Assembly (NCBI GenBank): GCA_016214905.1
Contig: JACRMQ010000001.1
Span: 62,001-126,000 of the forward strand
Length of the DNA: 64,000 nt
DNA from: Ignavibacteriales bacterium
Lineage (GTDB): Bacteria; Bacteroidota; Ignavibacteria; UBA10030; SZUA-254
Reading direction: 5' to 3'
Shown here: positions 24,713 to 45,623 of the stretch, piece after piece
Position numbering within the stretch: position 1 is the stretch's first letter
Layout: every line of letters begins with the position of its first letter
Position numbers and translations under genes: made by a program
The notes under the pieces: generated by a model
The model's input: only the letters and a program-made list of their open reading frames with translations
What the model was told of the DNA's origin: nothing
Database searches by the model: none

Positions 24713-24789
24713 GGCGGAGTAGCTCAGTTGGTTAGAGCAATGGAATCATAATCCATGTGTCGGGGGTTCGACTCCCTCCTCCGCTACCA
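24713..24789 (+). tRNA. tRNA with CAU anticodon (probably elongator tRNA-Met)
   Basis: A complete 77-nt cloverleaf with encoded CCA. Acceptor GGCGGAG pairs with CTCCGCT (G-U at the first pair); D arm GCTC...GAGC; anticodon stem ATGGA/TCCAT with loop ATCATAA (anticodon CAT); T arm GGGGG TTCGACT CCCTC. A regular first acceptor pair argues against initiator tRNA. CAU also belongs to tRNA-Ile2, the substrate of TilS encoded 128 bp downstream; the acceptor here lacks the C4-G69/C5-G68 pairs known as TilS determinants in E. coli, so Met is preferred. Confidence 0.93.
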
Positions 24790-44955: not shown

Positions 44956-45480
44956 TTAATTAGTAGATGGAGCATTTTGCGAACCGAATATTTCGGCTAA
45001 ACCTAAACTCCGGCGGTTAGCCATTGTTTTTGCGTCGATCAGACCTTGCAATGCTCTTAGTGTCGCTTTCACAACGTTGTGAGGATTGCATGAACCGATT
45101 GATTTTGTTAGAACATCTTTCACGCCGGCAGATTCCAATACTGCGCGCACGCCACCGCCTGCTATTAATCCTGTACCTGGCGATGCGGGTTTTAACAAAA
45201 CTCTCGATGCGCTGTATTTACCGATTACGGTATGGGGAATTGTTCCGTGCAAAATAGAAACGTGTACAACATTTTTCTTTGCATCATCGATTCCTTTAGC
45301 AATCGCGTCCTGCACTTCATTAGCTTTACCCAAACCAACTCCAACATAACCATGACCATCTCCAACGACAACGATAGCGCTGAAACTAAAACGTCTTCCG
45401 CCTTTAACGACCTTGGCAACACGATTTATGTGTACAAGTCGGTCTTTAAGTTCAAGTTCGCCTGTTTTTATTCTTGTCAA
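44956..45480 (-). CDS. rpsE: 30S ribosomal protein S5
   Basis: S5, 174 aa, a decoding-fidelity protein. The N-terminal dsRBD-like domain shows [20 protein letters not shown] and [19 protein letters not shown]; the C-terminal domain shows [19 protein letters not shown]. Its start is only 36 nt from the tRNA-Gln gene that separates it from rplR, so its mRNA 5' end may be made by tRNA processing. Confidence 0.98.
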
Positions 45481-45516
45481 TTTTTACTCCAAAATATATA
45501 ATGATCTATTTTACTG

Positions 45517-45587
45517 CTGCCGGGAGAGGAGTCGAACCTCTACAGACGCCTCCAAAGGGCGTTGTCCTGCCATTAGACGACCCGGCA
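45517..45587 (-). tRNA. tRNA-Gln (anticodon UUG)
   Basis: A 71-nt cloverleaf on the minus strand. Acceptor TGCCGGG pairs with CCCGGCA, discriminator G; anticodon stem ACGCC/GGCGT with loop CTTTGGA (anticodon TTG); T arm AGAGG TTCGACT CCTCT. CCA is not encoded (CAG follows). The weak U-A first acceptor pair is typical of tRNA-Gln. It lies between rplR and rpsE, same strand, with 36 nt on each side and no visible terminator or promoter, so it is probably cut out of the ribosomal-protein transcript. Confidence 0.95.
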
Positions 45588-45623
45588 AAATTTTAATGAT
45601 GTCGCCGGGAGCAAGGGCTTTGT

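Follow-up and report, generated by a model that had tools for sequence, protein, structure and literature searches.

The tRNA gene described here lies among ribosomal-protein genes of the spc operon of an Ignavibacteriales bacterium, within a stretch of 64,000 nucleotides that was analysed as a whole and is hereafter called the window. Read along the minus strand, the genes are rplF, rplR, tRNA-Gln(UUG), rpsE, rpmD, rplO and secY, the protein-coding genes being presumably those named, as judged by sequence recognition. The rplF gene (46553-45996) precedes rplR (ribosomal protein L18; 45624-45992), which stands ahead of the tRNA and is identified by its open reading frame and by homologues in the same position. 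The gene after the tRNA is rpsE (ribosomal protein S5; 44956-45480), identified by its open reading frame and homologues and starting with TTG. The tRNA itself was called by ARAGORN as tRNA-Gln(ttg) at 45516-45587, with the anticodon at 45555-45553, and it has the same orientation as the flanking rplR and rpsE. The Rfam model RF00005 matches it at 45517-45587 and gives it 59 bits, well above the gathering score of 29, and the ends given by the two programs differ by at most one base. Their agreement upholds the starting point of the sequence-only reading, namely that a complete tRNA-Gln(UUG) in operon orientation stands between rplR and rpsE. The gap between rplR and the tRNA (45588-45623) measures 36 nt and holds the motif CCCGGC (45609-45604), and the gap between the tRNA and rpsE (45481-45515) measures 35 nt and holds GGAG (45490-45487), the likely ribosome-binding site of rpsE. 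One further tRNA, a tRNA-Met, was found by ARAGORN in the window, at 24713-24789.

All four stems of the cloverleaf are present, the anticodon is UUG, and the acceptor end has a U1-A72 pair and a discriminator G, with CCA not encoded. In an alignment of 36 homologues, the cloverleaf pairs are kept in 99.9% of 720 cells, and two-sided changes are found at 8 of the 20 stem pairs. The resulting covariation score of 0.267 was reached by none of 500 shuffles and fell to 0.036-0.102 when the partners were slid by 1-3 columns. Since both sides of these stems have changed together, the alignment indicates that the embedded gene is a functional tRNA.

The source genome (3.3 Mb in 10 contigs, 99.64% complete) has 46 tRNAs, and ARAGORN, run on the tRNAs and their flanks, assigned two of these to glutamine. 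The embedded gene is the only tRNA-Gln with a UUG anticodon among the 46; the other, which lies on contig 6 and is the sole further tRNA-Gln gene, has CUG. By established decoding rules, a CUG anticodon does not read CAA. The embedded gene is therefore the only tRNA found in this genome that is able to read CAA, so that the decoding of this codon rests on it. A count over 25 genes of the window, those for ribosomal proteins together with tuf and rpoA, gave 69 CAA and 55 CAG codons.

A tRNA in such a position could be produced by a chimeric assembly, the breakpoint that the sequence-only reading had named as a possible objection, or by a recent insertion in one strain. Both are scarcely conceivable here, as the same junction occurs in the loci of relatives, in more than 100 other assemblies and in loci of named organisms. 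The stretch of DNA from rplR to rpsE was matched in 57 of 60 genomes searched, including the source genome. When 29 loci of relatives were scanned, 28 had tRNA-Gln(UUG) between the two genes, and the remaining one, from family f6, had no tRNA there. Among the best 80 rpsE matches from named loci, the slot holds a tRNA in 19. These are labelled Ignavibacteria, Ignavibacteriae, Ignavibacteriales or Melioribacteraceae, except for five whose label says no more than Bacteroidetes or Bacteroidota; of these five, four are included in the tree described below and group with the other tRNA-bearing loci. No tRNA was found in the slot in the other 61 of these 80; they are Chlorobi, Calditrichota, KSB1, Bacteroidia and unplaced loci, and they include L079 (Ignavibacteria), L081 (Ignavibacteriales), L140 (Ignavibacteriae) and L085.

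For a wider survey, 245 genomes of the class were searched with a covariance model comprising the tRNA, the spacer and the start of rpsE. At a cut-off of 96.8 bits, which was our own choice, 115 of the 245 genomes have the operon arrangement, most of them assigned by the model match alone. They belong to 11 families (f1, f2, f4, f5, f10, f13, f14, f16, f17, f24 and f27). The genomes were sampled from larger groups, and incomplete ones may be misfiled. The lowest match above the cut-off (G245) proved true when its locus was fetched, as did others near it (G138, G188, G197, G222, G169 and G226), and nine fetched matches that were below the cut-off or were second copies are tRNA genes with no ribosomal-protein genes in the 1.3-6 kb fetched. 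The arrangement is thus neither a recent insertion nor a local oddity, and in this respect the sequence-only reading needs correction: within the class, no fewer than 11 families share it, and other families have in its stead a different tRNA-Gln(UUG) gene at another place. The slot itself varies in content. In G197 and G222, both of family f10, it holds a tandem of tRNA-Gln(UUG) and tRNA-Gln(CUG) (L236:1087-1327 and L237:1071-1349, in the orientation of rpsE), and two loci have long gaps between rplR and rpsE in which no tRNA was found (122 nt at L108:2873-2994 and 143 nt at L152:2527-2669).

Genomes of families f6 and f20 carry a different tRNA-Gln(UUG), which starts with TGGGG and lies away from rpsE. 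With the f6 copy as DNA query, matches were obtained in 117 of the 245 genomes, two of which (G017 and G044, 76% identity) were removed because their coordinates are those of the embedded tRNA itself. In the final tally, 115 genomes have the operon type, 115 have the other type, none has both and 15 have neither. Twenty of the weakest matches to the other type were re-read, and all 20 are tRNA-Gln(UUG). This distribution indicates that the two types replace each other. Among the 15 genomes with neither, seven (G009, G081, G155, G179, G200, G246 and G255) also lack an rpsE match. In another, G228, the slot is empty, and a tRNA-Gln(UUG) of yet another, third kind lies elsewhere (L262:2711-2782), with a terminator-like hairpin behind it; other sampled members of its family mostly carry the operon copy.

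At the level of the phylum, 109 of 395 genomes match the model at E <= 1e-11, 53 within the class and 56 outside it. Of the latter, 24 matches that extend beyond the tRNA part of the model were fetched; all 24 are tRNA-Gln(UUG), and no ribosomal-protein match was found near them within the 1.6-2.0 kb fetched. Most of the remaining 32 cover only the tRNA part. As the 24 are close in sequence to the embedded tRNA, this type of tRNA occurs in other lineages as a gene at other genomic positions.

The history of the arrangement was approached with a tree of five ribosomal proteins from 168 rows, 79 of them with the tRNA, which requires at least five changes of state; this tree is poorly rooted on Bacteroidia rows, and two long branches meet in it. 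A smaller, more careful tree of 52 rows does not fix the placement of f6. A topology that unites the 34 tRNA-bearing rows (f1, f2, f4, f5 and f13 with named relatives) in a single clade withstands the test (p-AU 0.093), and loss in f6 is accordingly not proven. The data are compatible with a single old gain followed by several replacements, and with several gains in the same slot, and the former seems simpler. An origin of the tRNA from phages was also considered and set aside, as only two of 50,697 phage records match, both being entries of one phage; each match falls at an annotated tRNA-Gln and covers 74% of the query at 80% identity.

How the tRNA is expressed may be judged from the signals around it. 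A sigma-70 scan over 1.2 kb found four promoter-like sites against 2.4 expected. Three of them are on the operon strand, each with 9 of 12 consensus positions, and one of these overlaps the 3' part of the tRNA and the following gap. Consensus and hairpin scans found no terminator-like site on the operon strand, and within the 1.2 kb a single one on the other strand. The sequence-only reading had seen neither promoter nor terminator: for terminators this stands on the operon strand, and for promoters there are the three weak sites. The best promoter-like site of the region, TTGTCA-17-TATAAT (11 of 12; 45474-45502), sits where rpsE starts, but on the plus strand, so that it points against the operon. 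The operon orientation of the tRNA, together with the lack of terminator-like sites and the presence of only weak promoter-like ones, makes its excision from the ribosomal-protein transcript probable, as had been proposed earlier.

Alternatively, the tRNA could be served by a promoter of its own, located either in the gap or within the last part of rplR, in which case its location in the operon would be incidental and readthrough minor. The sigma-70 scan does not take in all promoter types, and many tRNA genes of the genome sit outside such clusters, both of which speak for this possibility. However, promoter-like sites are near chance frequency, and both the slot and the operon orientation have been preserved over many families. 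Furthermore, the gap between rplR and the tRNA, which in 79 tRNA-bearing loci measures between 3 and 81 nt, is only 3-11 nt in 27 of them, so that a private promoter would there fall inside rplR. We consequently regard a private promoter as improbable. Signals downstream are less informative. A hairpin-plus-T site of -5 kcal/mol or lower follows 14 of the 46 tRNAs of the genome, including the CUG tRNA-Gln, and none follows the embedded tRNA; such a site is also missing at 28 of the 46, for which reason its absence here is weak evidence.

As regards processing, T at position -1 is the base favoured by bacterial RNase P. It is found in 63 of the 79 tRNA-bearing loci, and also at 24 of the 46 tRNAs of the source genome. 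The RNA of RNase P was found in this genome; for RNase Z there was no match at the curated cut-off, the single candidate scanned reaching 95.4 bits against 292.95.

Two further features of the locus were considered as candidates for a role and not upheld. The CCCGGC motif in the gap ahead of the tRNA is complementary to the 5' acceptor strand, and in the computed fold of the source sequence its pairing displaces the acceptor stem. It is common to several members of f1 and is not conserved over the class. The mean acceptor-stem probability over 51 loci is 0.62 with the native leaders and 0.73 with shuffled ones, which does not bear out a conserved leader switch; the probability is below 0.2 in 15 of the 51 loci, and G001, of the same genus, retains the stem at 0.88. 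The motif is kept as no more than a lead. A non-ATG start of rpsE is likewise not a consequence of the tRNA: by our own start-picking rule, TTG or GTG is used in 63 of 79 rows with the tRNA and also in 35 of 88 without it, and all 11 rows of f10, each of them tRNA-bearing, start with ATG. By the same rule, over the 168 rows, rpsE and rplF often have TTG or GTG starts, and rpmD and rplO nearly always have ATG, with or without the tRNA.

Our main reading, to which we assign a probability of roughly 0.8, is that tRNA-Gln(UUG) belongs to the spc operon as a settled part of it, co-transcribed with it and released by RNase P and 3' processing. The gene, its place, its conservation, its status as sole copy in this genome and the exclusion between the two UUG types over 245 genomes are observed; co-transcription, the individual steps of processing and any coupling between the supply of the tRNA and ribosome synthesis are inferred. 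One message would be transcribed through rplR, the tRNA and rpsE, with the tRNA as a part of it. RNase P would cut at the 5' end of the tRNA, a 3' endonuclease or exonucleases would free its 3' end, and CCA, because it is not encoded, would be added after release. The upstream message would then be left ending after rplR, and the downstream message would start in the 35-nt leader that contains the rpsE ribosome-binding site. As this is the one tRNA found in the genome that can read CAA, decoding of the codon would depend on the spc transcript. Against this reading, it counts that family f6, of the same order, and G228 live without the arrangement.

The supply of the tRNA may plausibly be coupled to ribosome synthesis. 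It is also possible that the arrangement has no regulatory meaning: an old insertion may have become fixed once it was the sole UUG tRNA-Gln, and would then have been lost only after a substitute had arrived. It is important to note that this account is about what the position is for; co-transcription and excision could hold alongside it, and the odds given to the two are therefore not exclusive. We consider the chances of such a frozen accident to be evenly balanced. The strict exclusion between the operon type and the other UUG type (115 and 115 genomes, overlap 0) is in its favour, as are G228, which has lost the operon copy and has elsewhere a different tRNA-Gln(UUG) that comes with a terminator-like hairpin, and the f6 genomes, which carry the other type. 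On its own, however, it leaves unexplained why the tRNA has persisted in the operon over so many families. A more far-reaching proposal, which we put forward tentatively and hold to be rather doubtful in its full extent, is that a large part of the class has handed its CAA-reading tRNA to the spc operon, which would make the decoding of CAA dependent on excision from ribosomal-protein mRNA, that copies in the operon and elsewhere are exclusive and have been switched several times, and that the operon tRNA cuts the message and ties its own supply to ribosome synthesis.

The separation of neighbouring messages by excision of a tRNA is well known from mitochondria as tRNA punctuation. Unlike that system, the present case involves a bacterial operon, a single tRNA and a ribosome-binding site ahead of the next gene. 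In E. coli, the tRNAs of metT-leuW-glnUW-metU-glnVX, tRNA-Gln included, are freed from a longer transcript by RNase P and other nucleases (PMC3985628). This is a tRNA-only precursor. A second E. coli case is the secG-leuU transcript, in which the tRNA is placed after one protein gene. Unlike rplR-tRNA-rpsE, neither is known to split a ribosomal-protein operon. The tRNAs of the tufB operon (Thr, Tyr, Gly and Thr), which are termed highly variable, and a tRNA-Trp near the secE operon are described in PMC8046335. The present arrangement resembles these in that tRNA genes are found with translation genes, in the same large region of conserved gene clusters. The tufB and secE tRNAs head an operon or sit between operons, whereas here one tRNA splits two ribosomal-protein genes within the spc operon and, unlike them, is the only UUG tRNA-Gln of the genome.

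The nearest parallel comes from a related lineage. In all six Chlorobi loci read, a tRNA-Gly(UCC) lies upstream of rpsE (L094:226-299, L098:232-305, L095, L097, L099 and L102), and in L094 and L098, where open reading frames were read on both sides, its neighbours are the spc genes rplN and rplX. This Chlorobiaceae case is likewise a tRNA inside the spc operon in the same orientation, but it differs from rplR-tRNA-rpsE in both the tRNA and the slot. A prior report of tRNA-Gln between rplR and rpsE was not found in the open-access literature searched, in which tRNA-Gln, rplR and rpsE are not named jointly by any paper, and passages of PMC9318685 and PMC3534657 do not mention the rplR-tRNA-rpsE arrangement. 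Mixed operons of tRNA and mRNA are already known, and rplR-tRNA-rpsE is a widely conserved new variant of them.

With many related genomes that have the arrangement and many that do not, the class provides a natural experiment on operon stoichiometry, mRNA stability and tRNA supply, and the all-or-none exchange between the two types of tRNA-Gln(UUG) bears on how a needed single-copy tRNA gets replaced and relocated.
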